A stretch of DNA of 64,000 bases from Chloroflexota bacterium (lineage in GTDB: Bacteria > Chloroflexota > Dehalococcoidia > Bin125): contig VXQT01000013.1 of NCBI GenBank assembly GCA_009838915.1, positions 1-64,000 on the forward strand, in the 5' to 3' direction. Under the pieces are notes generated by a model. The model was not told the DNA's origin and did not search any database. It saw only the letters and a list, made by a program, of their open reading frames with translations. Of the stretch, positions 17,901-35,885 are shown in pieces. The translations under genes and the position numbers were made by a program. How positions within the stretch are numbered: position 1 is the first letter of the stretch; each line of letters starts with the position of its first letter.

Positions 17901-20900
17901 CGGCAACGTGAACTCGGCCAACGACGACGACATCGCGGTCACGATTAACCTCACGGACGTCAATGAAACGCCGACGATTGAGACCACCACGACCTCAATC
18001 TCCGTCGCGGAGAACCAGACCGGTGTCCTCACCTATGCCGCAGACGACCCGGACAACGACAACAACGAGGCGCACGACGCGAGCAACACGCTGACTTGGT
18101 CGGTGGAGACCGCCGACGACGGGAGCTTCTTTGAGATCGGCGCGACCAGCGGCGTGCTCACGTTCAAGAACGCGCCGAACTTCGAGAACCGGCAGGACGC
18201 CGGCAATGACGGGGTCTACAACGTCACGGTCACGGTCACCGACAACGGCATCGACGGCGCCAGGGGCGCGTCGAACCACCTCAGCGTCTCCAAGTCGCTG
18301 GCCGTGACTGTCACTGACGTCAACGAGACGCCCACACTGACCACGGCTCCCGCCGCCGTCTCGTTCGACGAGAACGCGACGGGCGTCGTTGCGACCTACA
18401 TCGCGACCGACCCGGACGCGACGACGGGAACGATGAGCTGGGACTTGATGGGTAACGACGCGGGCGACTTCAACATCACCTCAAACGTGAACGGGACAGC
18501 CGAGCTCAGGTTCAAGAGTCCGCCGGACTACGAGATGCCGGACGACACCGGCGGCAACAATGTCTACGACCTGACAGTGCGTGTGAGAGACAACGCGAGC
18601 CCCAGGCTGGAAGACACGCAGACCATCGCCGTCACCGTCAACGATCTAAACGAGACCCCTGTGATCGCGGGTGATGCCGGGCCAAGCTTCGCGGAGATCG
18701 AGTTCGATCACACGGCGACGGCATCAGAGCTCGTGATCGGCACCTACACAGCCACCGACGACGACAACGCGGACAACGCCGGCCTGCAAACGATCACGTT
18801 CGACGTGTCCGGCACGGACGCGGCTCACTTCAGCATTGACGCGAACACCGGCGTGCTGTCCTTCAGCATCGAGCCCGACTTTGAGAATCCCGCCGATTTG
18901 GCGGACTCAAACATGATGGGCGCCTCCGACAACATGTACGAGATCGTCGTGGAGGCGGACGACGGAGCGGGCGAGTCGAACAGCGTCGGGACATTCCCAG
19001 TCACCGTGACCGTCACCGGGGTCAACGAAACGCCGGAGGTGCCGGCCGGCGTTCCCGATGAGAACTTCGCAGAGATCGAATGGGATGCCGATTCCGCCGA
19101 CCTGGACGTGATGACCTACATCCCCCGGGACGAGGAGATCAGCATCCTCACCCAGCTGTCTTGGTCGCTGGCCGGTACCGATGCCGCCGACTTCCAGATC
19201 ACCGAGGACTCGACCACCGGCCACGGCACGCTGAGCTTCCGCAACCGGCCCAACTTCGAAGATCCGACCGACCGCGTGAACACCGCCGAGAGCCACACGG
19301 CCGGCGACAACATGTACGAATTCATCGTCAAGCTCAGCGACGGCCCGAACACGCGCGAGTATCCGATGACCGTGACGGTCACCAACATCAACGAGACGCC
19401 CGGGTTCACAGCGGTTTCGACTGGTCGGCACGCCGACGAGATCGAGTATGACTCTGGGATCACTGCAGCTGAGATGTCGACCATTCCCGCCACGGTGCCA
19501 AACCAGGCCTACTGGTACCGGGTCGAGGCTCGCGACGAGGAGGGCGACGACATCATCTGGACGATCGCCGGTCCAGACGCGGCTGACTTTGTCATTGCTG
19601 AGGACGCCGATTTCGTCATGACCGCCGATGCGGACGAGAGCGCCATCGCCCGCTGGAACATCGTGCCGGACTTCGAGGATCCGATGGGTTCCTCAACCGA
19701 TGTCGGCGCTAACGGCTACGTCTTCACGGTGAATGCGTCCGACGGCACCAATACCGCGATGCATGAGGTCTTCATCCGTATCTTCGACGTCAACGAGCGG
19801 CCGGAGTTCACGGGAACCGTCGAGACCGCGATCGCGCTCGACGAACACGACGCAACCCTGGACGCGGACTTCTCGGAGCCGCCCTATGCCTTCCCCACGA
19901 TCGCGACCTACACCGGTCGCGACGAGGAGGGCGGGGTTACATGGTCGCTGACGGGAACGGACGCGGGCGACTTCGAGATCGACTCGGGCGGCAACGTCGT
20001 CTTCAAAGAGACGCCCAGCTTCGAGGATCCCAAGGACTCCGGCGGCGACAACGTCTACAACTTCACCGTCGTGACCACCGACATCCTGAGTAAGACGAAC
20101 CGCCGCACCGCCGAGCAGCCCGTCACCGTGACGGTGCGCGATATCGAGGAGACGGGCGTGATCCAGGTGAGCAACCTGGATCCGGTCGTAGGGGACACGA
20201 TTTCGTTCACGTTGTCGGACCCTGACGGCAACATCGACACAACTGCTACAAACATCAGCTGGACCCTGAGGGGGCAGGAATCCGGAGTCTGGCAGCCAAT
20301 CACTATCGGCAGCGCCGCCTCGACCACGCTGAGCTACACGGTTGACGAGGACGACGCCGGGAAGCCGTTGCGGGCCGAGGTGTCCTACTTCGACCGGCGA
20401 AACGCGGACCGCAACTTCGCCAATCGCAAGATGCTGACCAGCGGCGAGACGTCGCCGGTGCAGGCCGACCCTCTACCCAATGTGAAACCTCGATTCCGCT
20501 CGGGAACCAGCCAGGCGATCGAAGAGGGGCCCGCAGGGAGGATTCTGCCCGAACGAATCACGGCCACGGACCGCGACGGCGACAACCTCACCTTCGCCAT
20601 TGATCCGGGGCAGGACTCTGCGCTCTTCGAGATCGATCCATCATCCGGACAGATCACGGCCGTCGGCGACCTGGATTTCGAGACGGCGGGGCCGCAGGGA
20701 CTGTTGTTCTTCACCGTGAGCCTGCATGACGGCAAGGGCCTGGACATCAATGACATGGTGATCAATGACGACTCGGTCGACGTGACAACCGATGTGTCGG
20801 TGCGCGTGATCGACGTAGAGGAGGAGGGTGTCGTCACCCTCTCGGACACAGAGCCCGAGGCAGGGACGCCGGTGACGGCGACCCTCACGGACGGCGATGG

Positions 20901-23900
20901 CGGGGTCACAGGCCAGAGCTGGCAGTGGTCCCGCTCGCAGGACGGACGCTCAGGCTGGTCGCCCGCAACGGGATCGGGAGCAACCACCAACAGGTACACC
21001 CCCACGGTGAGCGATGAGGACTCCTACCTGCGGGCCGTGGTGGAGTACACGGACCGGCGCGGCGGCGGCAAGCGGGCGGAAGCAATCACCAACCCGGTGC
21101 CCAGCGAGAACCGCCGGCCGCTGTTCCCCTCGTCGGAGACGGGCCAGCGCACGGTGGATGAGAACTCGCGGGCGGGGACCAACGTCGGCGCGCCGGTGGC
21201 AGCGGAAGACCCTGAGAACGACCGGTTGACCTACACGCTGACCGGCGCCGACGCCGCCTCGTTCACGATCACGGGCAGCGGCCAGATTCGAGTTGGCTCG
21301 GGCGCGACACTGGACTTCGAGACCAAGTCCAGCTACCGCGTCACCGTGGAGGTGCACGACGGCAAGGACGGCGCCGGCGCCACATCAACCGCAATCGACG
21401 ACACGCAAAACGTGACGATCACAGTGGCGAACGTCGAAGAACCCGGTTCCGTCACTCTTTCCTCGGAGACGGCGACGATCCAGGCGCGGGTCCCGGTGAC
21501 GGCCACGCTGGAGGACGACGACATTCCGACCAACGTCACCTGGCAATGGTCGCGCTCCCGCAGCAGCACCTCAGGATGGGCCAACATCGCCGGGGCGACG
21601 TCCGCCGTGTTCACTCCGGACGACACCGACGCGGGCAACTACATCCGGGCGATCGCCAGCTACGACGATGGCGAAGGCTCGGGTAAGACGGCGGTCAAGG
21701 TGTCGCCGCGGATCGGACAGCCGCCGCCGGTCAACTCGGCGCCGGCGTTCCCGGCGACGGAGCGAGGCCAGCGCGAGCTGCAAGAGAACGCCAACGCCGG
21801 AGATCCAGTGGGCGATCCCGTTGCCGCCACGGACTTCAACAACGACCCGCTGACGTACACGCTCAGCGGCACAGACGCGCCGCTGTTCACAGTCGGCGCG
21901 AACGACGGGCAGTTGCGAGTTGCCTCCGGCGCGCAACTGGACTTCGAGACGAAGCGCACACTGCGGGTCACGGTCGAGGTCTCGGACGGCGCGGACTCGC
22001 TGGGCGACCCGGACGACGACGCGATCGACGACCGGCAGAGCGTGGTCATCACGCTCATCGACGTGAACGAAGCGCCTGTCGTCACCGGCGAAGACATGCC
22101 CTCCTTCCCGGAGAACTCCGATCGGGCAGTCGCGACATACACCGGCACGGACCCGGAGCGCGACAAGCTGAATTGGTCCGTGGACAACGATGACGATTTC
22201 TTCATCACCCAGAGCGGAGCGTTGTACTTCGCCTCGCCGCCCGACTACGAGGACCAGACCTCTTACTCGGTGACCATTACTGCCACTGACGACGATCCAG
22301 TCCAAAGTCTTTCTGGTTCTCTGTCGGTAACCGTCTCGGTGACGGATGTGGAGGAGTCTGGGGTAGTCACTATCACCCCGCCGCGCGGCTGGGTGGACGT
22401 GTCAACGCAGCTCACGGCTGGCTTGGAAGACGACGACGGCAGCGTCTCAGGCGAGCAGTGGCAGTGGTCGCGTTCCAGTAACCGCTCGAGCTGGTCGGAC
22501 ATTCCCGGCGCAAACAATGCGAGTTACACGGCAACCAGTGACGACGTCAACCAGTACTTGCGCGCAACAGTCTCGTACACCGACCGTCGGGGCGGCAACA
22601 AGGAGGCCTCGGCCTCGACCCAGGCGCGAATCGGCGCGACCCGTCCAGGCACCAATAGCGCGCCTGACTTCACGGAGACGTCGACAACGCGCAGCATCCG
22701 TCAGGGATCTGGGAAGGGCCGTCCGGTTGGCGCGCCGGTGCGCGCCATGGACGACGACGAAGGCGAAGTCCTTACCTATGAACTGGAAGGAGCCGACGCG
22801 GAGCACTTCACGATCGATCCGTTGACCGGTCAAATCAGGACGAGCGACGTGCTGGTCGAAGCGGATCAGGACACATACAGCCTCGACGTGACCGTCAACG
22901 ACGGCTTCGATGCTTCGTACGACGCAGACGATGGCGTAGACGACAGGATCCAGGTAGTGATCACGGTCACGGGCGGCGCCTTCATTCGCTCCGGTTCCTC
23001 AGGCGGCGGCGGGGGATTCGGCTTCGTGCTACCTCCCCCCGTGGCTCCCTCCGCGGCCGACTTCGACTGGAACGTCGACCGCGACTTGGACGAACTCGAC
23101 CCCAAGAACGAGAATCCGACCGGCATCTGGTCGGACGGCGAGACCATCTGGGTGCTGGAGAACTCAACCAGCGGCCTTGGCCGCGTCTTCGCATACGAGC
23201 TCCACAGCGGCGATCGCCTCGAGGAAGCCGAGTTCGAACTAGATTCCGGCAACCGCTTTTCCCACGACATCTGGTCGGATGGTGAGGTGATGTGGGTCGC
23301 CGACAGCGGGCAGGACAAGCTCTTCGCCTATCGGCTCGAGGATGGCGCGCGGCTCCCCGACCGCGATCTCGAACTTGATGAGCGCAATCGTGACCCACGC
23401 GGTATCTGGTCTGACGGCACCCTCATGTACGTCGTTGACAGCAGACAGGATGCGCTCTTCGTCTATGAACTGGCCAGCGGCGAGCTGCTGGCTGAGTACG
23501 AGCTCGACTCGCTCAACCGCAGTCCGCGCGGCACTTGGTCCGACGGCGTCACGATCTGGATCTCCGACGATGGCGCCAACCGTGTGTTCGCGTATCGCAT
23601 CGAGGAAGGCGCGTTGACGCGCCTTGAGTCGGAAGAGTTCAGTTTCCGCTTCCTGCTCAAGGCCGGCAATGGCGACGCACGCGGTATCTGGTCCGATCTC
23701 GAGGTACTGCTGGTTGCGGATGCACAGGACGCCAAGCTCTACAGCTACAACATGCCCGACGCGTTTGATGCGCGGTTGAAATCGCTGTCGCTCAGTTCAG
23801 TCGAGTTCGGTCCCTTCTCTCCTCTGCGCACGGAGTATCGCGGAACATCGAGCGCCGACTTCACCACTGTCGACGTGGAGGCGGCGCAGGATGATGCCAG

Positions 23901-24702
23901 CGTCAAGATTGAACCGGCCGACACCGACAGCGACGCTGAGAGCGGGCACCAGGTCGCGCTGTCGGCAGGTGTTCGGGTCATCATCACGGTGATCTCGCCC
24001 GACGGCAGCCGAACGCGCGCCTACCGCGTGACGGTGGAGACCGGCAACCAGGCCCCAAGGTCCACCGCGCTACCGAGGCTCCAGCTCATCACAGGTGAAG
24101 ACCCGACCCGAATCGATCTGGCCACGTACTTCAGCGACCCGGACGGTGATCCGCTTGACTACACGCTGGGCCGATCCTCGGATCTGGGCGTAGCGACCGC
24201 GGTGCTGGACAACGGCGTGCTGGTCGTGACTCCGGTTGGTCCGGGTACGGCGAGCGTGATCGTGTCGGCAAGCGACGGATCGCTGAACAGCCCCACGAGC
24301 AGGTTGAGCGTTACGGTCGCGCCGGCGCCGACAGTGGCGGAGGCGCGTATCGCCGCTCGTCGCGTCGCGGCCGGCCGCGTCGAGTTTGCGCTCCAGGTTC
24401 GCGCCCGAGGTGAGTCCTGGCAGTCGTTGATCCTGCCTCAGCGGCGCTTCCTGGCCGCGGACTCGCCGACGGGCGCATGGCGCGTCAGCACGGTGATCGA
24501 GGTGGGAGCGGAACAGTCGGCCCGCAACCTCCGGATTGTCGCACGCCGCCTCGCAAGCGGCAGCGTCGAGTTCGCTTTGCTCAACCGCCTCGAAGACGGG
24601 ACCTGGAGCGCTCGCCTCCTGCCTCGCGCCCGATTCCTCCCTGCTACCGCCGCGTTCGACCGCTGGCACTTCAGCACGCCCCTGGATGTCGCCTCACCAT
24701 AG
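14953..24702 (+). CDS. Giant cadherin-repeat surface adhesin (3249 residues)
   Basis: The N-terminal signal or anchor helix is at residues 37-55 (IRLTALLAMIALAGLLTVSQ). Next come a fibronectin III-like domain (about 60-155) and a choice-of-anchor type beta domain (about 190-350). Sixteen cadherin-like modules follow (about 355-2685), recognised by PEN near the start, LTGTDA-like cores, YNVTVxVRD and a closing D/NVNExP. Five Ig-like modules (for example WQWSRSRSSTSGW) are inserted after modules 4, 11, 12, 13 and 15. Then come five or six WSDGxTxWV propeller-like repeats (about 2715-2935), a cadherin-like beta sandwich, an Ig-like domain and two copies of the shared RIAARR motif at the C terminus. 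Cadherin modules usually bind calcium. No LPXTG, PEP-CTERM or type IX sorting signal was seen. ATG 14989 and 14998 are alternative starts. Likely role: cell-cell or particle adhesion. Confidence 0.93.
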   Translation: MQSALPADVWGVMSAMAMERAHKGTSDRRWFRFANIRLTALLAMIALAGLLTVSQDGVHADATCNVPPINLASALGEDNASVVLNWEASGECTPDEYAVYRRDMDVEGSRMTKIASVDGDVLTYTDTTVTAGEDYRYRIRSNDQGSRSNRTDITIPEATATEPEPESDPVEQSSESQPRSVPRNEVTLVGNFNQSGSTSEASSIQAQAFTTGSNSVQYVLNTVELRFTGTSNATTLLVKIFTTNSDGTPNAEHATLTNPDSIGNGTQAFTAPDDTTLDPSTTYAVVITSSIGGSLAGNVERIDSTGEDSGGADGWTIADNRLWKSVPEDAWTSDDTNLLKIRIKGTILGNNEPEFDAETATRTVPENSVSGTNVGDPVSAMDDDSEDTLEYRLTGTDASSFTIESASGQIKTSAALNFESKDSYSVVVEVRDSKNDAGAADTVWDDTIAVTINVDDVDEPPVITSTGAGFATISVAENTPDTTILATYTADDPENGTLVWTLTGADSNLFDLFGADLHFKDSPDYEDRRDSGQDNVYNVTVNVRDTADAVIDDTIAVAITVTNVNEPPSIGTVLISGERREGTPTSEVLATYNASDPESDQLIWSLSGPDAGDFTIGSGNGELRFSNVPDYENPADQGGNNVYNVTVQVRDGKNSQGGSDSAIDDTVAVTFEVVNVNEAPVITTTGTSFTTISRPENTATTAVLQTYAADDPETTDALTWTVTGPDAARFAIADHGDGQVDLKFSAVHDYENPTDVGTDNVYNVTVQVRDSKINTPGNTNGNADTMTDDFINVVVTVTNVDEPGTVTITGMESGGQELTASVTDIDGTVTSESWSWHRQGSTPGSFSGIPGATSNTYTTVAADVGKKLKAIVLYTDPQGSGKSANAETGTIGASNVEPSFSSMTATRSVAENSGLGVNVGSPVSTTDDDGDSLHYSLSGTDASSFTIVSTSGQIQTKSGITYNYESKSSYSVTVHVRDNKDAAGNVNSANDDDIAVTINLTDVNETPTIETTTTSISVAENQTGVLTYAADDPDNDNNEAHDASNTLTWSVETADDGSFFEIGATSGVLTFKNAPNFENRQDAGNDGVYNVTVTVTDNGIDGARGASNHLSVSKSLAVTVTDVNETPTLTTAPAAVSFDENATGVVATYIATDPDATTGTMSWDLMGNDAGDFNITSNVNGTAELRFKSPPDYEMPDDTGGNNVYDLTVRVRDNASPRLEDTQTIAVTVNDLNETPVIAGDAGPSFAEIEFDHTATASELVIGTYTATDDDNADNAGLQTITFDVSGTDAAHFSIDANTGVLSFSIEPDFENPADLADSNMMGASDNMYEIVVEADDGAGESNSVGTFPVTVTVTGVNETPEVPAGVPDENFAEIEWDADSADLDVMTYIPRDEEISILTQLSWSLAGTDAADFQITEDSTTGHGTLSFRNRPNFEDPTDRVNTAESHTAGDNMYEFIVKLSDGPNTREYPMTVTVTNINETPGFTAVSTGRHADEIEYDSGITAAEMSTIPATVPNQAYWYRVEARDEEGDDIIWTIAGPDAADFVIAEDADFVMTADADESAIARWNIVPDFEDPMGSSTDVGANGYVFTVNASDGTNTAMHEVFIRIFDVNERPEFTGTVETAIALDEHDATLDADFSEPPYAFPTIATYTGRDEEGGVTWSLTGTDAGDFEIDSGGNVVFKETPSFEDPKDSGGDNVYNFTVVTTDILSKTNRRTAEQPVTVTVRDIEETGVIQVSNLDPVVGDTISFTLSDPDGNIDTTATNISWTLRGQESGVWQPITIGSAASTTLSYTVDEDDAGKPLRAEVSYFDRRNADRNFANRKMLTSGETSPVQADPLPNVKPRFRSGTSQAIEEGPAGRILPERITATDRDGDNLTFAIDPGQDSALFEIDPSSGQITAVGDLDFETAGPQGLLFFTVSLHDGKGLDINDMVINDDSVDVTTDVSVRVIDVEEEGVVTLSDTEPEAGTPVTATLTDGDGGVTGQSWQWSRSQDGRSGWSPATGSGATTNRYTPTVSDEDSYLRAVVEYTDRRGGGKRAEAITNPVPSENRRPLFPSSETGQRTVDENSRAGTNVGAPVAAEDPENDRLTYTLTGADAASFTITGSGQIRVGSGATLDFETKSSYRVTVEVHDGKDGAGATSTAIDDTQNVTITVANVEEPGSVTLSSETATIQARVPVTATLEDDDIPTNVTWQWSRSRSSTSGWANIAGATSAVFTPDDTDAGNYIRAIASYDDGEGSGKTAVKVSPRIGQPPPVNSAPAFPATERGQRELQENANAGDPVGDPVAATDFNNDPLTYTLSGTDAPLFTVGANDGQLRVASGAQLDFETKRTLRVTVEVSDGADSLGDPDDDAIDDRQSVVITLIDVNEAPVVTGEDMPSFPENSDRAVATYTGTDPERDKLNWSVDNDDDFFITQSGALYFASPPDYEDQTSYSVTITATDDDPVQSLSGSLSVTVSVTDVEESGVVTITPPRGWVDVSTQLTAGLEDDDGSVSGEQWQWSRSSNRSSWSDIPGANNASYTATSDDVNQYLRATVSYTDRRGGNKEASASTQARIGATRPGTNSAPDFTETSTTRSIRQGSGKGRPVGAPVRAMDDDEGEVLTYELEGADAEHFTIDPLTGQIRTSDVLVEADQDTYSLDVTVNDGFDASYDADDGVDDRIQVVITVTGGAFIRSGSSGGGGGFGFVLPPPVAPSAADFDWNVDRDLDELDPKNENPTGIWSDGETIWVLENSTSGLGRVFAYELHSGDRLEEAEFELDSGNRFSHDIWSDGEVMWVADSGQDKLFAYRLEDGARLPDRDLELDERNRDPRGIWSDGTLMYVVDSRQDALFVYELASGELLAEYELDSLNRSPRGTWSDGVTIWISDDGANRVFAYRIEEGALTRLESEEFSFRFLLKAGNGDARGIWSDLEVLLVADAQDAKLYSYNMPDAFDARLKSLSLSSVEFGPFSPLRTEYRGTSSADFTTVDVEAAQDDASVKIEPADTDSDAESGHQVALSAGVRVIITVISPDGSRTRAYRVTVETGNQAPRSTALPRLQLITGEDPTRIDLATYFSDPDGDPLDYTLGRSSDLGVATAVLDNGVLVVTPVGPGTASVIVSASDGSLNSPTSRLSVTVAPAPTVAEARIAARRVAAGRVEFALQVRARGESWQSLILPQRRFLAADSPTGAWRVSTVIEVGAEQSARNLRIVARRLASGSVEFALLNRLEDGTWSARLLPRARFLPATAAFDRWHFSTPLDVASP
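24336..24693 (+). repeat. Two shared-motif copies at the C terminus of the giant adhesin
   Basis: Copy one (24336-24504) reads ARIAARRVAAGRVEFALQ ... GAWRVSTVIEV. Copy two (24523-24693) reads LRIVARRLASGSVEFALL ... DRWHFSTPLDV. They close the protein, where a surface-anchoring or sorting domain would be expected. Confidence 0.75.
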
Positions 24703-25377: not shown

Positions 25378-25791
25378 ATGGCCAAGCAAGGCGTCGAGCC
25401 GGACGAACTGACTCAACCATTCTGGGATGCCGCGAACGAACAGCGGTTGGTTATCCAGTACTGCGTCGACTGCGATCGACTGCAGCATCCGCCCTCCGAC
25501 AGCTGCCGCGATTGCGACGACGGCGGGGAGCTCGGATGGAAGCAAGTCAGCGGACGCGGCAGGATCTACAACTACGGCGTCGTCCACGACTGCCCCATCC
25601 GCCTCTTGCAGGAGGACCAGCCGTTCAATCTCGCCGTGATCATGCTCGACGACGACCCGGGAATCCAGATGTACTCGCATCTGCCCGGCATACCGGTCGA
25701 CGACGTGCCGGTCGGCGCGGCTGTCGAGGTGATCTTCGAACCCTCGGCCAACGGACAGCTCGTGCCTGAGTGGCGCGTGATTGCCGACTGA
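25378..25791 (+). CDS. DUF35 zinc-ribbon/OB-fold acyl-CoA-binding protein
   Basis: The product is 137 residues from ATG 25378 (GGAGAGAACC upstream). The N-terminal rubredoxin-like zinc ribbon has CVDC and CRDC around QHPPSDS. The C-terminal OB fold includes GRGRIYNYGVVHDCPI and the closing VEVIFEPSANGQLVPEWRV. DUF35 proteins pair with thiolase-like enzymes and supply part of the acyl-CoA site; in actinobacterial steroid degradation a DUF35 domain (ChsH2) binds the Ltp2 aldolase. The thiolase-like partner is the next gene, 42 bases on, so the two probably form a complex. Confidence 0.93.
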   Translation: MAKQGVEPDELTQPFWDAANEQRLVIQYCVDCDRLQHPPSDSCRDCDDGGELGWKQVSGRGRIYNYGVVHDCPIRLLQEDQPFNLAVIMLDDDPGIQMYSHLPGIPVDDVPVGAAVEVIFEPSANGQLVPEWRVIAD

Positions 25792-25833
25792 TCCTCTTCC
25801 GTTCGATAACCCGACTGGCTTGGAGTACCCGAC

Positions 25834-27156
25834 ATGACCACACCAACCGCACCCGATGCGATGTACCGCAATGACGAGGGGCTAGGGATCTGGGAGCACC
25901 GGGGCAAGGTGGCCGCGGTCGGCGTTGGCCATGCGCCAACGTCGCGCCGCTGGGACGGCCGGCCCGAGACTTGCGTCGGCGCGATCACTATCGACGCGCT
26001 GCGCAAGGCGATCGACGACGCCGGCGTCGCGCCAGACCAGATTGATGGCCTGGTCATTGTCCCTGTAACTACCACAGGGGCGTTCTGGGAAGCGGGCAAG
26101 CCGCTCCCGATGGATGTAATCCAGAGCTTCAACCAGACCGACGATCCGCTCGACGGCATCGCCAAACTCAGCGCCGAGTGGCTGCTCGCCAACATGCCCG
26201 AGCTGACCAACGTCAACTTCACCATGTACGGCCCTGGCTGCATGTCCAACGCGCTCAACGTCACCGCCCAGGCCGTGGGCGACGGTCTGGCTCACACCTG
26301 CCTCGTCGTCAAGAGTTGGCACAACTTCGAGGGCCGCTACTACCAGGGCGGCGCCAACGCCGGCAACGCCTTGCCGGGGACTCCGGCGATCACCCAGCTC
26401 TGGGGAGGTCCCGCTTCCTACAGCACGGCCCTGCAATTCGCCGAATATTGCCGCAAGTACGGCAAAGCCCACGACATGATGGCGCCGTTCATGGAGAACT
26501 CGCGCCGCAATGGACTCAGGTTCCCCGAGGGTTACTGGGCCCAGCATCGGCCGGAGGAACTGGGGCCCGAGGACTATCTCGCCTCGCGCTGGATCGCGAA
26601 GCCGGCTAACCTGTTCGACAACGACATTCCGATCATGATGTCGGGCGCCTACCTGTTCTCCACGGCCGAGCGCGCGCAAGACATGAAGCAGAAGCCGGTC
26701 TACATCCTCAATCACGCCTCCAGCAACACCCGACCGCGCAGCCTGCTGCCCACGCTGGATGAAGTAGAAGCCGACACTGCCCTCACCGGCCGCAAGATCT
26801 ACGAGGGCGCCGGGATCACCGCCGACGATCTCTCCTTCGAGAACATGTACGACGGTTTCTCGCTATTCCATCAGTTCCACCTCGAAGGCCTGGGCTATCG
26901 GGGGATCAAGTTCGGCGAGGCGCTGGACTTCTACCAGACCGATATCAGCATCGAGGGACCGAATCCGGTCTCCCCAAGCGGGGGCAATGTCGGTAGCGGT
27001 CGCAGCCGGGTCTGGATGCACACGGACTGTATCCAACAGTTGCAGGGCCGCGCCGGCGCGCGGCAGGTCACCGGTGTCAAACCGGAGGTGGGAGTTTCCG
27101 GCGGGCCGATGCCGCTCGGAGGCAACTACACCGTCTGGAGCGCCAGCCCCGACTAG
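25834..27156 (+). CDS. Thiolase-like protein (SCP-x/Ltp2-type, probable lyase or retro-aldolase)
   Basis: The 440-residue product has a thiolase fold. Visible are an N-terminal VAAVGVGHAPTSR strand, the pattern TIDALRKAIDDAGVAPDQIDG, and Cys136 in YGPGCMSNALN near where the nucleophile lies in true thiolases. The C-terminal GGNVGSGRSRVWMHTDCI occupies the place of the usual GGHPxGxSG segment, but the GHP catalytic His is absent. Loss of that His argues against ordinary thiolysis and for an Ltp2-like carbon-carbon lyase working with the DUF35 protein. The substrate would be a CoA-linked side chain; its identity is unknown. Confidence 0.9.
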   Translation: MTTPTAPDAMYRNDEGLGIWEHRGKVAAVGVGHAPTSRRWDGRPETCVGAITIDALRKAIDDAGVAPDQIDGLVIVPVTTTGAFWEAGKPLPMDVIQSFNQTDDPLDGIAKLSAEWLLANMPELTNVNFTMYGPGCMSNALNVTAQAVGDGLAHTCLVVKSWHNFEGRYYQGGANAGNALPGTPAITQLWGGPASYSTALQFAEYCRKYGKAHDMMAPFMENSRRNGLRFPEGYWAQHRPEELGPEDYLASRWIAKPANLFDNDIPIMMSGAYLFSTAERAQDMKQKPVYILNHASSNTRPRSLLPTLDEVEADTALTGRKIYEGAGITADDLSFENMYDGFSLFHQFHLEGLGYRGIKFGEALDFYQTDISIEGPNPVSPSGGNVGSGRSRVWMHTDCIQQLQGRAGARQVTGVKPEVGVSGGPMPLGGNYTVWSASPD

Positions 27157-27168
27157 AACAATCTCCCG

Positions 27169-27207
27169 CTTCCCCCTCTGGGGGAAGCTGCCGAAGGCTG
27201 AAGGGGG
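27169..27207. repeat. GC-rich palindromic intergenic repeat, copy A
   Basis: CTTCCCCC-TCT-GGGGGAAG is a perfect 8-base stem, followed by the tail CTGCCGAAGGCTGAAGGGGG. It lies 12 bases after the thiolase-like stop. Its last arm also sits where the ribosome site of the HAD gene should be. Confidence 0.7.
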
Positions 27208-27215
27208 CGCCCGCG

Positions 27216-27593
27216 ATGTCGGAGACCGAGGAGCAGTCCGTGACGATACTGATCAGCTTCGATATCGACGGCACGCTGGAAGTAGGCGATCCCCCCGGCC
27301 CGCTGACCATGGACATGGTCCGCCTGGTCCGCGACAAGGACTTCCTGATCGGCAGCTGTTCCGATCGCACCCTGAGCAGCCAACGAGCGCTCTGGCAAGA
27401 CCATGACATCGAGGTTGACTTCGTCGTCGGTAAGCACATGCTGGCCGACGTCAAGGACCGGTTCGACGCCGATGTCTACCTGCACATCGGCGACCGCGAG
27501 GATCTCGATCGGCAATACGCGCTCAAGGCCGGCTTCGATTTTCTCTGGCCCGATGAGGCCGTGGCCCATCCGCACTTCCAGCCGGACATCTGA
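27216..27593 (+). CDS. Small HAD-superfamily protein
   Basis: The product is 125 residues. HAD motif I is present (ISFDIDGTLE, Asp16 and Asp18). Motif II is the Ser in GSCSDRTLSSQ, a Lys lies in VVGKHMLAD, and a GD-x-x-D-like motif is in HIGDREDLDRQYA. It is shorter than most HAD phosphatases and has no cap domain, so it may act on a macromolecular or protein-bound substrate. The substrate is unknown. It lies between the thiolase-like gene and the dimethylformamidase-like operon, same strand. The repeat copy A supplies GAAGGGGG about 8 bases before the ATG. Confidence 0.8.
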   Translation: MSETEEQSVTILISFDIDGTLEVGDPPGPLTMDMVRLVRDKDFLIGSCSDRTLSSQRALWQDHDIEVDFVVGKHMLADVKDRFDADVYLHIGDREDLDRQYALKAGFDFLWPDEAVAHPHFQPDI

Positions 27594-27622
27594 CCCCCTC
27601 TCCCTCTGGGAGAGGGAGGGGG
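27594..27622. repeat. GC-rich palindromic intergenic repeat, copy B
   Basis: CCCTCTCCC-TCT-GGGAGAGGG forms a perfect 9-base stem at 27596-27616, flanked by CC and AGGGGG. It begins at the HAD stop codon, so it may terminate that transcript. Confidence 0.7.
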
Positions 27623-27858: not shown

Positions 27859-27994
27859 CCGCAATCAGACCTTCGGCATCAATGCCCGTAGGGAGGTCAG
27901 TCTATTGGCCCCGACGCCAGCGGGCGCCGGCCTCGTCGGTTGCATCCCTCTCGCGCCCGGCCTAGCCTGAGCCACCAAACCAGCGAGGGTGCGG

Positions 27995-28309
27995 ATGCCT
28001 TCTCAGTACCCGATTGACCCCAGCCGCACAGATCTCGCGCGTGAGTTCATGGCTAATCCCATGGGTCCGCACAGCGCAGCGCTGCAGCGCATCGTCACGC
28101 GTATGCGCGACACCGAGGCGGCCGGCCGCTATGTGCTCGTCACCCGCGTTCCCTACCAGGAGTGGGGTCTCGCCCAGCTCTCCGGACAGCGCGGCGTCGA
28201 TGTCACCCTGCTCGAAGACCAGGTCTTCAACTCCCTCGAAGATGCGGAGCGAGCGGTCTTCAGGATGCGCTGGGAACTGATCACTGGAACGCCACTCGTC
28301 CTCGATTGA
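27995..28309 (+). CDS. N,N-dimethylformamidase small (alpha) subunit-like protein
   Basis: The product has 104 residues from ATG 27995 (GCGAGGG upstream; GTG 27989 is possible). The order of small patches fits the DMFase small subunit: ANPMGPHSAALQRI, then GRYVLVTRVPYQEW, then an F-x-x-x-E-D-A-x-x-AVFRMRWEL end. In characterised DMFases this helical subunit (about 130 residues) packs on the large subunit. The strongest support is the next gene, 22 bases on, which is the large subunit. On its own this short sequence would not be enough. Confidence 0.65.
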   Translation: MPSQYPIDPSRTDLAREFMANPMGPHSAALQRIVTRMRDTEAAGRYVLVTRVPYQEWGLAQLSGQRGVDVTLLEDQVFNSLEDAERAVFRMRWELITGTPLVLD

Positions 28310-28331
28310 TGTAGCCCCTGGGGAACAGTCC

Positions 28332-30590
28332 ATGCTCGAAAAGAAGATCGCCGGCTACAGCGACGAGATCAGCGTCGCTCCGGGCGAGCGCATCCGCTTC
28401 ATGGTCAGCTGCGAACCGGGCGTCGATCGCTACCAGGCGGACATCGTCCGCCTGATCTCCGGCGACCGCCAGCCCGACGGGCCCGGCTACCGCGACGAAC
28501 TCCTGCCAACGTCCGTGAGCGGTGAGTATCCCGCCCGAACGCAGGAGACCTACTGCGGCTCCTATGCCGTGGTCCCGGACGGCCCGGCCTTTCGCGCCCT
28601 AGGCGATCTCTCCCTCCAGGCCACCATCTTCCCTACGCTGCCTGCCGTCCGCCGAGCTTGCCTGATCTCCAAGATGGACGTCGACGCCGGTCGCGGCTTC
28701 GCGCTCTGGACGGATCCGTCCGATGGTCTCGTCCTACAACTCGGAGACGGCGCGGGCGGTCTGTCCGAGCACGCCCTGGGCCAGCCGTTCGTCTCCCGCG
28801 AGTGGTACCTGGTCAGCGCCACGTACAACTCGGCCAACGGCGAGGTGCTTCTGCGGCAACACCTTCTCGACTCCTACGCCCGCGACACCTCGAGCGGCGA
28901 AGCCCGTCACGCTAGCGACGGGGCTGCGGCCGTCGATTGCGACGCGCCGCTCTTAATCGCCGCGGCCAGCCGCGAGGAGGCCCGCGGGAAACCGGTCGGA
29001 GAGATGATTTTCAACGGGCGGATCGAGCGCCCGGTCGTCGCTTCCCGCGTACTTGAGCCCAGTGAAATCGAAGCGCTGCGCTCAGGACCGGTTCCCGTCG
29101 ATCTGCGGACCGACATCTGTGCCGCCTGGGACTTTGGCCAGGCGTTTGAGACCGACGAGATCATTGACATTTCGCCCAACCGCGCCAATGGAGAATTGAT
29201 CAACCTTCCGATCCGCGCTGTGCGCGGCTCCAACTGGACAGGCGACGAACTCAGCTATCGCCACGCGCCCGATCAGTACGCTGCCATCCATTTCCTCGAT
29301 GACTCGCTCTACGACTGCGAGTGGGACGCCGACTTCGAGCTTGAAGTCCCTGCCGACACGCCCAGCGGTCTCTACGCCGCCCGCCTCAGCTCCGGCGACC
29401 AGGAAGATCACATCACGTTTGTTGTGCGTCCACCGCGCGAACTCAGTGAGCGCAAGGATCGTGCCGATCGGGCCACTGCATCGCTCGCGTTGCTAATTCC
29501 CACGGCCAGCTACATGGCTTACGGCAATTCTCGCGGCAGTATCGAATTCGGCAATGAACTGCTCGCCAATCACCTCGCTGTGATCGGGCCTGACGAACGC
29601 TACCTCAACCGGCATCCCGAGTACGGCAACTCGATGTATGACCACCACAACGACGGTACGGGCGTCTGCTACTCCTCGCGGCTGCGTCCGCTAATCAACA
29701 TCCGTCCAACCCATCCCTGGCTCTGGCAGCTCAGCGCCGACATGCATCTGGTCGAGTGGCTCGAGGCGCAAGGCATTCCCTTCGACGTGATCACTGACGA
29801 AGATATGCATCATGACGGCGTCTCGCTTCTGGAGCGCTACTCCTGCGTGATGACCTGTAGTCATCCGGAGTACTACTCCACGCAGATGTGGGACGCCGTT
29901 CATGCCTTCACCCAGCGCGGCGGCCGGCTGATGTACATGGGCGGCAACGGCTTCTACTGGCGCGTCGCCTACCGCGACGACAAGCCTGGGGCCATGGAAA
30001 TGCGCCGCACCGAGGACGGCTCTCGCTCCTGGGCCAGCGAGCCGGGCGAGTACTACATGGCCTTCACCGGCGAGTACGGCGGCCTCTGGTGGCGCGCCGG
30101 CCGCACGCCGCAGTCACTGGTCGGCAACGGATTTATCGCCCAGGGCTTTGACCACTCCTCCTACTTCCGGCGGACAGACGACAGCCACGACCCGCGCGTT
30201 GCCTTCATCTTCGAGGGCGTCGAGAATGAGATCATCGGCGACTTCGGCCTGATCGGAGGCGGCGCGGCCGGGCTGGAACTGGACTCGGCCAGCCGCGCCT
30301 ACGGCACGCCGCCCCACGCCCTGACCGTGGCAACCTCCGAGCAGCACACCGACGCCTATATTCGCGTGAACGAGGACATCGGTCACATGCTGCTCTCGAT
30401 CGGCGGGCAGGACGATCCGCAGGTACACGCAGACGTGGTCTTCTTCGAGACGCCGCGCGGAGGCGCCGTGTTCTCGACCGGTTCGATCGGCTGGAGCTCG
30501 GCGCTGTTCCATAACGATCACGACAACAACGTCTCGCGCATCACGCGCAACGTGCTCGACCGATTCCTCGATCCGACTCCGCTCGCCTAG
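28332..30590 (+). CDS. N,N-dimethylformamidase large (beta) subunit-like amidohydrolase
   Basis: The 752-residue product matches the usual DMFase large-subunit length. It has an N-terminal beta region, a LamG/concanavalin-like segment (about 75-250) and a C-terminal DMFA2-type domain (about 365-750). Candidate iron ligands, by similarity to the two-Tyr one-Glu site described for the Paracoccus enzyme, are a Tyr of SYMAYGN (394/397), Tyr436 in MYDHHNDGTGVCYSSR, and Glu513 in SHPEYYSTQMWD. Known DMFases hydrolyse dimethylformamide to dimethylamine and formate, but relatives in marine bacteria probably act on other N-substituted amides, so the substrate is open. It follows the small-subunit gene. 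The ribosome site is GGGGAAC. Confidence 0.85.
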   Translation: MLEKKIAGYSDEISVAPGERIRFMVSCEPGVDRYQADIVRLISGDRQPDGPGYRDELLPTSVSGEYPARTQETYCGSYAVVPDGPAFRALGDLSLQATIFPTLPAVRRACLISKMDVDAGRGFALWTDPSDGLVLQLGDGAGGLSEHALGQPFVSREWYLVSATYNSANGEVLLRQHLLDSYARDTSSGEARHASDGAAAVDCDAPLLIAAASREEARGKPVGEMIFNGRIERPVVASRVLEPSEIEALRSGPVPVDLRTDICAAWDFGQAFETDEIIDISPNRANGELINLPIRAVRGSNWTGDELSYRHAPDQYAAIHFLDDSLYDCEWDADFELEVPADTPSGLYAARLSSGDQEDHITFVVRPPRELSERKDRADRATASLALLIPTASYMAYGNSRGSIEFGNELLANHLAVIGPDERYLNRHPEYGNSMYDHHNDGTGVCYSSRLRPLINIRPTHPWLWQLSADMHLVEWLEAQGIPFDVITDEDMHHDGVSLLERYSCVMTCSHPEYYSTQMWDAVHAFTQRGGRLMYMGGNGFYWRVAYRDDKPGAMEMRRTEDGSRSWASEPGEYYMAFTGEYGGLWWRAGRTPQSLVGNGFIAQGFDHSSYFRRTDDSHDPRVAFIFEGVENEIIGDFGLIGGGAAGLELDSASRAYGTPPHALTVATSEQHTDAYIRVNEDIGHMLLSIGGQDDPQVHADVVFFETPRGGAVFSTGSIGWSSALFHNDHDNNVSRITRNVLDRFLDPTPLA

Positions 30591-30740: not shown

Positions 30741-30790
30741 GTCAATTCGCATGTCACTGCATGGTCACTGCGGAAACGGCGTTGTATGAT
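30741..30790 (+). promoter_or_regulatory. Pho-box-like direct repeats and -10 before the second fusion regulator
   Basis: GTCAATTC (30741), GTCACTGC (30753) and GTCACTGC (30764) repeat at 12- and 11-base steps, one helical turn each. This is the layout bound by PhoB/OmpR winged-helix proteins. A TATGAT hexamer at 30785-30790 lies 13 bases after the last exact repeat, with no -35 hexamer needed if the repeats replace it. The downstream gene itself encodes such a winged helix, so autoregulation is plausible. Confidence 0.45.
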
Positions 30791-30849: not shown

Positions 30850-33282
30850 ATGGCCCAGGATGAAGTGCAGGCACGGCGTATCGCGACCTTGGAGGAGCGT
30901 CTCTCGCGACTGGGCGAGGCGAGCCTGCGGATCTCGGAGAGCCTTGACTTCGACACCGTGCTGCAGGAAGTAGTTGACGGCGCCCGGGCGCTGACGGGTT
31001 CACGCTACGGCGCGATCATGGTCATGAGCGACGACGGGCTGACCTCCGACCTGATCGTCTCAGGCGTTTCAGAAGACGAACGGCAGGCGCTGCTGGAGAT
31101 GCCTGAGGCGCCGGCGTTCTTCTCTTACCTGAGCGGAGTGAACGAGCCGCTGCGCATCTCGGACATCGACAGCCACATGAGCCCTGAGGGGATGCCAAGC
31201 TTCCGCCCGCCGCTGCCGGCGACGTCGCTGATGGTCGCGCCGGTCCGTCACCAGGGCGTCGGCGTGGGCACGATTTACCTGGCCCATGATCGAGACGACC
31301 GGCAGTTCAGCGGGGAGGACGAGGAGACGCTGGTCATGTTCGCCTCGCAGGCGGCGTTGGTGATCGCCAACGCCCGCCGCCATCGCGACGAGCAGCGCGC
31401 CCGCGCCGACCTGGAGGCGTTGATCGACACCTCACCGGTGGGCGTGGTGGTGTTCGATGCCCGCACCGGCGCGCCGCGATCGTTCAACCGAGAGGCATCG
31501 CGCATCGTCGATCGGCTGCGCGATGCCGATCAGTCGCCGGAAGAGTTGTTGGAGGTAGTGAGCTTCCGCCGCGGCGACGGGCGCGAGGTGTCTCTGCGGG
31601 AGTTCCAGATGACGGAGCTGCTGAGCATCGAAGAGACGGTGCGCGCAGAAGAGGTGGTGTTGCGCGTCGCCGACGGGCGCAGCGTCACCGTGCTGCTCAA
31701 CGCGACGCCGATCGTCTCCGGCGACGGCGCGGTCGAAACAGTCGTGGTGACGCTGCAAGACATGGCGTCGGTGGAGGAGATGGAGCGTCTGCGGGCCGAG
31801 TTCCTGGCCATGGTCAGCCACGAGTTGCGCGCGCCGCTGTCGACGATCAAGGGCTCGGCCACGACCGTACTGGACTCGGCCGTGGAGTTTGACCCGGCGG
31901 TCGTGCGCCAGTTCGTCCGGATCATCTCCGAGCAGGCCGATCATCTCAACGGTCTGGTCTCGGACCTGCTCGACGCGGCGCGGATTCAGACCGGCGAGCT
32001 GCCGGTCAGTCCGGAGCCGGCGGAGGCGACGGTGTTAGTCGACCGGGCGCGGAGTGCGTTCGCCAACGCCGGCGACGGGAATCCCGTGCAGATCGACATC
32101 GAGCCGAACATGCCGCTGGTCATGGCCGATCGGCGGCGAATCGTCCAGGTGCTTGTCAACCTGCTGAAGAACGCGAGCCGCAACTCGCCAGAGGGATCCA
32201 TCATCACACTGAGCGTCGCGCGTACGGACGTGCATCTTGCGTTCACCGTGTCCAACCGAGGCAGCGGCATTCCGCAGGAGCGTCTGCCCAACCTGTTTCG
32301 CAAATTCTCCGCTGGTCAGTCGGAAGGCCAGGTCAGCGACACGGGGTTGGGACTGGCGATCTGCAAGGGCATCGTCGAAGGCCACGGTGGCCGCATCTGG
32401 GCGGAGAGCGACGGTGTCGGCAAGGGCGCGCGTTTCACGTTCACGCTGCTGACCGTCGAGGCGGCCGGCCTGGGCTCGCCGTCCGATACGACGCTGATCG
32501 AAGAGCTTCCCCAGCCGGAAGAACAACCCGGACCCCGCATCCTGGCCGTCGACGACGATCCCCAGGCGTTGCGCTTTGTGCGCGAAGTCCTCGTCGCCGA
32601 CGGCTTCGACGCGGTCGTGACCGGCGATCCGCAGGAGGCGATGCAACTGATGACCGAGGAGCGGCCCCAACTGGTGCTGCTTGACCTGGTACTGCCGGAC
32701 ACCGACGGTATCGACCTGATGGTAGAGATGCGCAAGCGAGCCGACGTGCCGGTGATTTTTCTCTCGGCCTATGGCCGCGACGAGTTAATCGCTCGAGCCT
32801 TTGAACAGGGCGCGTCGGACTACGTGGTCAAGCCGTTCTCGCCGACCGAGCTGTCGGCGCGGATCAAGGCGGCCCTGCGCCGCCGCGAGGTATCGGTCCC
32901 TCCGCCGCCCTACACGTTCGAGGAACTGCGTGTCGACTACGTCAGGCGCCGCGTGACGCTCGCCGGCGAGGCGCTGCAACTGACGCCTACCGAGTACCGC
33001 ATGCTGGTCGAACTCTCGGCAAACGGCGGCAAGCTGGTCACGTACGAACAGATCCTGGATCGGGTCTGGGGCAAGGATCCGGAATCCGATCTTCGGCCGA
33101 TGCGGACGATGATGGGCAAGCTGCGCAGCAAGCTTGGCGAAGACACGGGAGAGCCCCGATACATCTTCACCGAGCCCCGCGTCGGCTATCGGATGCCGAT
33201 CGGAACACCAATCGAACCTGACGACCAGAGCAATCCTGAGGCTGCCGAACAAGAGCCGGGCAACCCGACGCCGTCGTCCTAA
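30850..33282 (+). CDS. Second GAF-PAS-histidine kinase-receiver-winged helix fusion
   Basis: The 810-residue product has the same architecture as the 12367 gene, with long identical blocks. His324 lies in MVSHELRAPLSTIKG, the N box is NLLKNASRNSPEGS, the G box is SDTGLGLAICKGIVE and the phospho-Asp is Asp612 in LLDLVLPD. The C-terminal winged helix has LTPTEYRMLVEL and YIFTEPRVGYRMP. It is soluble. The N-terminal GAF domains differ most, so the two proteins probably sense different ligands but bind similar DNA. It follows the dimethylformamidase-like operon on the same strand after 259 bases, so it could regulate that operon (inference). ATG 30850 is preceded by GGAAGAGGACAGGC. Confidence 0.95.
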   Translation: MAQDEVQARRIATLEERLSRLGEASLRISESLDFDTVLQEVVDGARALTGSRYGAIMVMSDDGLTSDLIVSGVSEDERQALLEMPEAPAFFSYLSGVNEPLRISDIDSHMSPEGMPSFRPPLPATSLMVAPVRHQGVGVGTIYLAHDRDDRQFSGEDEETLVMFASQAALVIANARRHRDEQRARADLEALIDTSPVGVVVFDARTGAPRSFNREASRIVDRLRDADQSPEELLEVVSFRRGDGREVSLREFQMTELLSIEETVRAEEVVLRVADGRSVTVLLNATPIVSGDGAVETVVVTLQDMASVEEMERLRAEFLAMVSHELRAPLSTIKGSATTVLDSAVEFDPAVVRQFVRIISEQADHLNGLVSDLLDAARIQTGELPVSPEPAEATVLVDRARSAFANAGDGNPVQIDIEPNMPLVMADRRRIVQVLVNLLKNASRNSPEGSIITLSVARTDVHLAFTVSNRGSGIPQERLPNLFRKFSAGQSEGQVSDTGLGLAICKGIVEGHGGRIWAESDGVGKGARFTFTLLTVEAAGLGSPSDTTLIEELPQPEEQPGPRILAVDDDPQALRFVREVLVADGFDAVVTGDPQEAMQLMTEERPQLVLLDLVLPDTDGIDLMVEMRKRADVPVIFLSAYGRDELIARAFEQGASDYVVKPFSPTELSARIKAALRRREVSVPPPPYTFEELRVDYVRRRVTLAGEALQLTPTEYRMLVELSANGGKLVTYEQILDRVWGKDPESDLRPMRTMMGKLRSKLGEDTGEPRYIFTEPRVGYRMPIGTPIEPDDQSNPEAAEQEPGNPTPSS

Positions 33283-33519: not shown

Positions 33520-33777
33520 ATGACTATCACGACTGCTCAAGTCGAGGCGGCGTTAATCGAGTGCGAGCCGAAGGCCGAGTACCGGGTGAACGGCCTGGCG
33601 CTCTTCACCGAGCGAGCCAACGGCGAACTCAGTACCTGGGGACATGCCGGTCACGACGTCTCGCTGGAGCGGGTGATACCGTTCTACGGCGATCCTCGCG
33701 TCCTGCGTCTGGCCTTCTGGTGCGAGACCTGCCACGTCTCGCAGCTTGCGTTGCTCGCGCGCCCCGATGTCGAGTGA
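33520..33777 (+). CDS. Small hypothetical protein with a CxxC motif
   Basis: The product is 85 residues from an ATG with a GGAGG ribosome site 7 bases upstream. It has no signal peptide. A CETC pair followed by His (FWCETCHVSQ) near the C terminus could bind a metal. The middle reads as alternating strands (YRVNGLALF, VLRLAFWCE). No family is recognised. It is convergent with the replication-relaxation gene. Confidence 0.6.
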   Translation: MTITTAQVEAALIECEPKAEYRVNGLALFTERANGELSTWGHAGHDVSLERVIPFYGDPRVLRLAFWCETCHVSQLALLARPDVE

Positions 33778-33850
33778 GTACGTCGAGCGTCTGCGACTGA
33801 ACTCCAGCTCGACCTCCTCACAGATCGGAAGCGCGCCACTGCGTGGCCGA

Positions 33851-35593
33851 TCAGGTGGCGCAGTGAAGCGGCACGGGTCGATCCTGCTCTGACCAAATGG
33901 TGCGATCTCCAGTGAGGGGTCCCACCATGGCTTCGGTGAGCGTGGTGGCGAGGAGCGGAAGGCTGCCTCGTTCCCGAATGAAGATGTCGCGGGCGCGGCG
34001 AGTCTGGCAGACAAACAGGACGGGAACCGCGCGGCGCGCCGCGGCCGCTCGTCGGTAGGGACGCAGCTTGCCCGCGATCAGGACCGGTTCCCGCGCGCGA
34101 CGCTCGAACTCGATCGCATGCGGACCGGATCCAAATGGTCCGTCCTCGACGAGCAGCAACAGGTCGGGTCGGATCTGGGTCAGACCAGGCAGGTTGACCT
34201 CGCCTCGCCAACCCGCGTACGCCCTGACTCCCTCACGGGCTAGTTGCAGTACGAGATCGTTGACGCCATCGTCGTGGCGCTGCTCCCTGAGCCTCCACTT
34301 GCGCTGCAGATAGAACCCGTGTCGGCTGCGGATCACAGCCGGCCGGACGCGGCTGAAGTTAGCGGCGCGGCGTATCCCGGCCTCGCCCAGGTAGTAGCGC
34401 TCTTCGAAGCATGCGGCGAGATCAAGGTCATCGAGGCGCTGCAGAATGCGGCGCACGCGTTCCTGCTGCCCGCCTGAGAGTTCCTGAAGCCAGCCTGCGC
34501 GCATTGCCGGAAACTCTGCGATCAACTGGAAAAGGCGGTAGGCAAGGGGTTCGGCGATCACGTCGAAGTCGCGATTTCGATGTAACCAGTGCCCGATGCG
34601 CTCGGGTCGACCGACTCTGATCCTCGACTGCGGATCGGAGATCAGGTCGCGCGAGGGCCGAGGCGTGATTGGCGCGGAGCAGCGGCGGTCAGGAGTGCAG
34701 ACCAGGATCGGTGGGTCATCGTCGAGCGTGCGCCGGGCGAGGTCGGCCGCCCAGCCGTCGGCGGCGACAACGACCAACGCCGACGGCTCGACCCGCTGCT
34801 CCGGATCCTCGTAGAACGCGCGGTTACTGATCCGAAACAGGCGCTTGCGCTGCGCGGAGTAGCAGTCGAGATTCCAGAAGCGGTGGTCTTGCTTGCGCCG
34901 CAGCGCACGCTCGGTGGCATGCAGTCCGGCATACGTGAGCGGTATCCAGATCGTCTCGCCGTACCTTGCGACAGCCGAGAAGAAGCTGCCATTACGCATC
35001 AGCCTGAGGTCGCTGAACGGAGGCGGCATGTCCCAATCCGGATGCCGCAAATGTCCGTCCAGTAGCAGCCCAGGCGCGAGCTGGTAGAGGGTTTCCAGCA
35101 TGGGCAGCCGGCGCAGGCAGGTCTGCAGTCCGCGCGCCGTCGCGGTCCAGGGCGGATGCTCGTGTCCGGGCCCGGCATCGACCGCCCTCGAGAGGAAGGG
35201 CGAGAACTCAAGGCGGTCGCGGTGACCGTAGTGTTCATGGTCGAGCGCAATTCGCGTGCCCTCGGCGCGACTTGAGGCCAGCATGTCGGCGATAGCTGGC
35301 TTCGGCGTGCCGTCCCGCAACAGTTCGCGGGGACCGAGGTGAGTGTGATCGGTGGTGTAGAGCTCGGTCAGCGAACGAGCGGTGAGGTACCAGCGCTGTC
35401 GAGGAACCTCGACCATGCCGCGCCGCAGCGAGCCCATCCAGCCGCCCAGGACGAGCGCATCGAGCTGGGCTTGGAGTTCTATCTCTGGTTCACTCACGAT
35501 GAGGGCCAGGTCTGCCGTGGCCGCCAGTGGCATCTGACCGATCAAACGCAACAGTCGCCGCTGCTCCGGCGTAAGTTGCCGCCCGCCAACCAT
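33851..35593 (-). CDS. Replication-relaxation family protein
   Basis: The 580-residue product begins with a winged-helix region (LTPEQRRLLRLIGQMPLA, about 5-70). The C-terminal half has a nuclease-like pattern: IRPDLLLLVED, HAIEFERRAREP, KLRPYRRA, then VPVLFVCQT. This resembles the PD-(D/E)XK-like part of replication-relaxation proteins (PF13814), which are usually found on plasmids and integrated conjugative elements. Here the gene stands alone, with no transfer or replication gene nearby, so it may be a remnant or a domesticated gene. The middle (about 90-400) is not recognised. Codon use looks like that of its neighbours. Confidence 0.55.
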   Translation of the reverse strand: MVGGRQLTPEQRRLLRLIGQMPLAATADLALIVSEPEIELQAQLDALVLGGWMGSLRRGMVEVPRQRWYLTARSLTELYTTDHTHLGPRELLRDGTPKPAIADMLASSRAEGTRIALDHEHYGHRDRLEFSPFLSRAVDAGPGHEHPPWTATARGLQTCLRRLPMLETLYQLAPGLLLDGHLRHPDWDMPPPFSDLRLMRNGSFFSAVARYGETIWIPLTYAGLHATERALRRKQDHRFWNLDCYSAQRKRLFRISNRAFYEDPEQRVEPSALVVVAADGWAADLARRTLDDDPPILVCTPDRRCSAPITPRPSRDLISDPQSRIRVGRPERIGHWLHRNRDFDVIAEPLAYRLFQLIAEFPAMRAGWLQELSGGQQERVRRILQRLDDLDLAACFEERYYLGEAGIRRAANFSRVRPAVIRSRHGFYLQRKWRLREQRHDDGVNDLVLQLAREGVRAYAGWRGEVNLPGLTQIRPDLLLLVEDGPFGSGPHAIEFERRAREPVLIAGKLRPYRRAAAARRAVPVLFVCQTRRARDIFIRERGSLPLLATTLTEAMVGPLTGDRTIWSEQDRPVPLHCAT

Positions 35594-35852
35594 CTCCGTC
35601 CCTGCGCTTCCGTGGGCCGGCGTCGCGGAGGTGAGTCCACGACAGGCCTGGATGCTGCAGGGGAACTGCAGGTTGACCGGGTTCCGACCGCGCGCTTCGT
35701 CCCAGCGTCACGTCGGAACGACAATGCTGCTCCGATGCGTCCGACGGTATGTCCGGCGCGGAGCGCAGATCGTCGTCGAATGTCATGTCCAGGTAAGACG
35801 GGCGATCGGTCTACTGAGACACGCTGACGAGATGTACGCGACTACAGAAGGT

Positions 35853-35881
35853 CCTCTCTCCCCGTGAAGCGAGGGGAGGGG
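35853..35881. repeat. GC-rich palindromic intergenic repeat, copy C
   Basis: CTCCCC pairs with GGGGAG around the loop GTGAAGCGA. It lies 5 bases downstream of the Anbu stop and may end that operon. The rest of this 292-base gap shows nothing else. Confidence 0.6.
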
Positions 35882-35885
35882 CAAG

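Follow-up and report, generated by a model that had tools for sequence, protein, structure and literature searches.

The two adjacent genes at 27995-30590 of the window (the whole stretch of 64,000 nucleotides that was analysed) are, judged by homology, the gene pair for both subunits of an enzyme of the N,N-dimethylformamidase (DMFase) superfamily. With good confidence, they can be read as one transcription unit for a heteromeric, Fe(III)-dependent amide hydrolase whose substrate is probably something other than dimethylformamide (DMF). The pair thus belongs to an already known enzyme family; what is not secure is the DMF reading and the link to a neighbouring regulator. The metal identity, the activity and the subunit assembly of the window enzyme are those that we infer from the sequences of the pair, whose genes and ribosome-binding sites are the following:

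27985 to 27990, forward strand: putative ribosome-binding site of the small subunit, GAGGGT (G27985, G27987 and G27988 kept in at least 10 of 11 loci)
27995 to 28309, forward strand: small (DmfA1-type) subunit, 104 amino acids, ATG start (profile match, Foldseek, dN/dS)
28320 to 28325, forward strand: putative ribosome-binding site of the large subunit, GGGGAA, replaced by GAGGGA in most relatives (a run of purines ahead of the ATG is kept across 11 aligned sequences)
28332 to 30590, forward strand: large (DmfA2-type) subunit, 752 amino acids (6lvb_A homology, PF20254, dN/dS)

The large subunit matches, at full length, both the Paracoccus DMFase (PDB 6lvb_A, residues 5-750, E 1.7e-144) and the N-acetyl-(R)-beta-phenylalanine acylase (8huy_A, E 1.3e-139), and it is recognized by the Pfam family PF20254 (DMFA2_C) with an E of 5e-96 and a score of 322.7 bits (curated cut-off 27). 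The small subunit, matched by no Pfam family, is too diverged to be placed by a single-sequence search (E 0.04); a profile made of 12 small ORFs located just upstream of large-subunit genes has 6lvb_B as its only PDB match (E 1e-23), and a Foldseek search with the predicted fold (model pLDDT 63.5) returns DMFase small-subunit chains at ranks 1-3 (E 1.5e-4). These three lines, namely the full-length match of the large subunit and the profile and fold matches of the small one, indicate that both subunits are real. The predicted model of the large subunit (pLDDT 47, from a 12-sequence alignment) also ranks DMFase and the acylase first in Foldseek, with a TM of 0.5 that adds nothing beyond the sequence match.

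The preliminary description, which had placed small and large subunits 22 bases apart, was right in its coordinates (28309 is the last base of the small gene and 28332 the first of the large one, both on the forward strand) and in taking both as homologues of the DMFase subunits. The mechanical ORF of the small gene opens at GTG 27989, but the alignment of all the genus orthologues begins at ATG 27995, the start already used in the preliminary description; wherever the large start was likewise set to the aligned ATG, the spacer between the two genes of the genus loci is 21-35 bases. Comparison with six genus relatives gives a dN/dS of 0.02-0.06 in the small gene and of 0.07-0.10 in the large one; purifying selection on both is thus strong, and they are no chance ORFs.

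Regarding the active site, the structure of DMFase has Fe(III) held by Tyr399, Tyr440 and Glu521, an essential His519 that is no ligand, Asn547 lining the site, and Phe693, contributed by the neighbouring large subunit, narrowing the pocket (PMC7686228). By alignment, the corresponding codons in the window are:

29520 to 29522, forward strand: Tyr397, predicted Fe ligand (6lvb Tyr399), invariant
29637 to 29639, forward strand: Tyr436, predicted Fe ligand (6lvb Tyr440), invariant
29862 to 29864, forward strand: His511, predicted catalytic His (6lvb His519), invariant
29868 to 29870, forward strand: Glu513, predicted bidentate Fe ligand (6lvb Glu521), invariant
29946 to 29948, forward strand: Asn539, predicted active-site Asn (6lvb Asn547), Asp in one homologue (L030)
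30384 to 30386, forward strand: His685, at the position of the DMFase pocket gate Phe693

Across the 32 proteins compared, both Tyr residues, the His and the Glu are always identical, and the Asn differs only once. The iron ligands proposed earlier are thus retained in Tyr397, Tyr436 and Glu513, whereas Tyr394, offered as an alternative to Tyr397, drops out, since it aligns with the non-ligand Tyr396 of 6lvb. The reaction catalysed is very probably an Fe(III)-dependent hydrolysis of amides: the iron centre would polarise the amide carbonyl and activate water, His511 would be required for catalysis, and a carboxylate and an amine would be the products released, with the small subunit presumably packing on domain III, stabilising the enzyme and helping to shape the channel that leads to the active site. 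Because the same site residues are identical in the acylase, they speak for the chemistry and are silent on the substrate. The gate position is more variable, with Phe in both known DMFases, Ser in the acylase, various residues elsewhere and His in the window genus, where it is kept in 11 of 11 relatives, although this assignment is that of one alignment column within a variable loop. The gate Phe693 expected of a two-subunit DMFase (EC 3.5.1.56) is accordingly His685 in the window protein.

The gene pair is present in 12 of the 15 genus genomes (its own included), the small subunit accompanies the large one in all genus loci that carry the latter, and the large subunit is a single-copy gene without paralogues in the same genome; a search of viral contigs for it found none. 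In the Chloroflexota as a whole, most large-subunit genes have no small subunit adjacent, and a profile search that recovers the small subunits of the window and of another Chloroflexota genome (G246) found none anywhere in ten large-only Chloroflexota genomes. The DMFase family is divided into a large-plus-small and a large-only form. On the tree these two forms require at least two changes, and three in the best one, and a tree that unites all two-subunit proteins in one clade is weakly rejected (p-AU 0.028, for groups that were fixed before the test but after the tree had been seen). The window genus forms a long isolated branch of the two-subunit type, which in the best tree lies outside the well-supported 6lvb clade (a grouping with that clade is not firmly rejected, p-AU 0.078) and far from the acylase clade. 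A gene for a PLP-dependent decarboxylase (PF00282) comes after the large-only Chloroflexota genes, directly or one gene later, in 5/5 loci (L069, L070, L071, L072 and L076), a neighbour hinting that the large-only relatives might act on an N-acyl amino acid.

The preliminary description considered the natural substrate to be open, and indeed the family name does not reveal it: DMFase (37.5% identity) and the N-acetyl-(R)-beta-phenylalanine acylase (39.1%) are equally distant from the large subunit, so neither name is transferable. The label "N,N-dimethylformamidase-like" consequently fits the fold and the metal site, but not the substrate. Rather than on DMF, the enzyme would most likely act on a different small amine or amino acid with an N-acyl group (formyl, acetyl or similar). 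This preference for a natural compound is founded on the two identities, the gate His, the behaviour of a homologue on the Paracoccus pAMI5 chromid, the lack of a DmmC match in the host, and the neighbours of two-subunit homologues elsewhere, which include primary-amine oxidases, AmiS/UreI amide channels, D-amino acid dehydrogenases and an N-formylglutamate amidohydrolase.

A more specific possibility, which we regard as tenable without leaning towards it, is an N-acyl amino acid acylase, possibly for beta- or D-amino acids, like the Burkholderia N-acetyl-(R)-beta-phenylalanine acylase. The latter (8huy, 8i59 and 8i5a) has the same large-subunit fold and site residues at 39% identity, and acts on an N-acetyl beta-amino acid. 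Moreover, two-subunit homologues of Burkholderia and Rhizobium are found near genes for D-amino acid dehydrogenase, alanine racemase or N-formylglutamate amidohydrolase, and their small subunits are 39-40% identical to that of the window (46% in Variovorax, 22-34% in the other lineages outside the genus); the decarboxylase adjoining the large-only relatives points in the same direction. However, the acylase PDB entries hold the large chain only, whereas the window has a small subunit, the acylase clade is distant, and no amino-acid gene is conserved beside the pair in the window genus.

It is improbable, on the other hand, that the pair encodes a true N,N-dimethylformamidase, which would release formate and (di)methylamine from DMF or N-methylformamide. 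The architecture does match, since the enzyme of Paracoccus sp. strain DMF (6lvb; DmfA1/DmfA2) is likewise encoded by a large and a small gene in the same order and with all domains, and the 2-Tyr-1-Glu iron ligands, the catalytic His and the Asn are shared. Nevertheless, the catalytic residues are kept equally in the acylase, which is no DMFase, the large subunit is only 37.5% identical and on the best tree falls, though not firmly, outside the DMFase clade, the gate Phe is a His, and the small subunit is shorter than in Paracoccus (104 vs 132 amino acids). Unlike the DMFase locus, that of the window has no DmfR-like LuxR gene upstream. The dimethylamine pathway was searched for through DmmC, DmmD and GmaS, and DmmC (dimethylamine monooxygenase) was not found in the host or three relatives, in a search without a positive control of its own; a DmmD match (about 32% identical) is probably GcvT, and the GmaS matches (30-38%) are probably ordinary glutamine synthetases.

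Two further pairs help to delimit the DMF reading. The dmfA1-dmfA2-like locus on the pAMI5 chromid of Paracoccus aminophilus JCM 7686 (L030) has two genes and the iron ligands, is 41% identical to the window protein and likewise 41% to 6lvb, carries Asp at the Asn547 position and the gate Phe, and has an AmiS/UreI transporter among its neighbours. Once P. aminophilus has lost its DMFase plasmid pAMI2, the pAMI5 pair, with an identity to DMFase of 40% or less, gives no growth on DMF (PMC4543880), so a two-subunit homologue about as distant from DMFase as the window enzyme does not confer this ability. The nearest relative found outside the genus, the pair of the Chloroflexota genome G246 (L038/L066; 48% identity, small subunit present), differs from that of the window in falling within the DMFase clade (100/99 support) and in keeping the gate Phe. 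The window pair also serves as a warning about the "dimethylformamidase" label, which is being transferred at some 40% identity, a level at which one genetic test did not detect any use of DMF.

Returning to the preferred reading, that of an amide hydrolase for a natural N-acyl compound, a stronger version of it seems to us evenly balanced between right and wrong: that the pair may represent a separate two-subunit branch, fixed in one largely uncultured and at least partly sponge-associated genus, with a pocket remodelled by His685 and an amide used by no characterised member, and that the small subunit may have been gained or lost more than once, so that it would mark a functional split. According to public records, the pair-bearing genus genomes are Chloroflexota/Dehalococcoidia MAGs, one of which, bin125, was obtained from the sponge Aplysina aerophoba (PMC5649159); through kinship to it, a sponge may also be the source of the window's own genome. 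In the literature library that was searched, nothing was found on the DMFase family in sponges. Since DMF dates only from 1893 (PMC7686228), natural substrates of the DMFase family must be older than this compound. DMFase owes its renown to the breakdown of a man-made solvent, and the pair would be a natural, non-xenobiotic branch of the family; being slowly evolving, and having a large-only sister form, it provides a clean comparison for the study of natural substrates and of the role of the small subunit.

As for the transcription of the pair, it is predicted that both genes share one conserved σ70-type promoter. This promoter and the regulator gene that follows the pair are located as follows:

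27940 to 27968, forward strand: putative σ70-type promoter, -35 TTGCAT (27940-27945), 17-base spacer, -10 TAGCCT (27963-27968), from conservation
30850 to 33282, same strand as the pair: fused GAF-PAS-kinase-receiver-wHTH protein, starting 259 bases after the large gene

The pattern TTGC(A/G)N-N17-TAG(C/A)CT is found in 11/11 genus loci, always with a spacer of 17 and with 25-27 bases to the ATG, and has a single match within the window. Identity across these loci drops from 0.89/0.95 in the two hexamers to 0.63 within the spacer and to 0.51 in the DNA upstream, and no conserved operator-like site lies 5' of the -35 box in the 11 aligned loci. The blocks common to the window and its relatives start, in three of the relatives, about 55 bases 5' of the small ATG and end at the large stop codon, and no third gene is conserved beside the pair across 10 genus loci.

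The preliminary description stated that a regulator follows directly and suggested a test of induction with amides, and a sensor kinase/response regulator gene does start 259 bases downstream. Its family is, however, adjacent to the pair in only 3 of the 12 pair-bearing genus genomes (in G001 and G004 on the opposite strand, convergent) and not adjacent in the remaining nine, and in G003 a 91%-identical regulator, together with the following DNA (89% identity), occurs without the pair. The regulator is therefore placed outside the unit, and its co-transcription with the pair is not conserved. A promoter-like site at 30762-30790 may belong to the regulator itself, although this match to the pattern could be due to chance. 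That this kinase-regulator senses an amide and induces the pair is very unlikely, even though it stands adjacent and on the same strand in the window, the DMFase locus of pAMI2 has a neighbouring LuxR-type regulator, DmfR (PMC4543880), and kinase or regulator genes lie near the pAMI5 and Aminobacter pairs: against it stand the distribution just described, a promoter of the pair without a conserved upstream site, and a 72%-identical paralogue of the regulator at 12367-14760 in the same window.

Some observations on the surroundings can be added. The regulator family has expanded within the genus, where one genome can carry up to 4 copies, and the G003 locus (L093, 1-5400) lacks most of the stretch 33771-35882, which in the window holds a Replic_Relax gene. 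Upstream of the pair, at 25378-27593, there are OB-fold (ChsH2-like), thiolase-like and small HAD-like genes, kept beside it in 3/10 genus loci (L017, L018 and L027). Between the HAD-like gene and the pair, at 27600-27618, lies the perfect palindrome CTCCCTCTGGGAGAGGGAG, the sole copy in the genome. Further upstream, 14953-24702 is one ORF of 3249 amino acids in which cadherin-like motifs recur and which in part resembles ORFs located near the pair in L017. Among the homologues, the Aminobacter DMFA1 pair (L031) is preceded by a flotillin-domain gene, and flotillin-rhodopsin clusters of marine bacteria are reported to contain a gene annotated as N,N-dimethylformamidase (PMC10308929).
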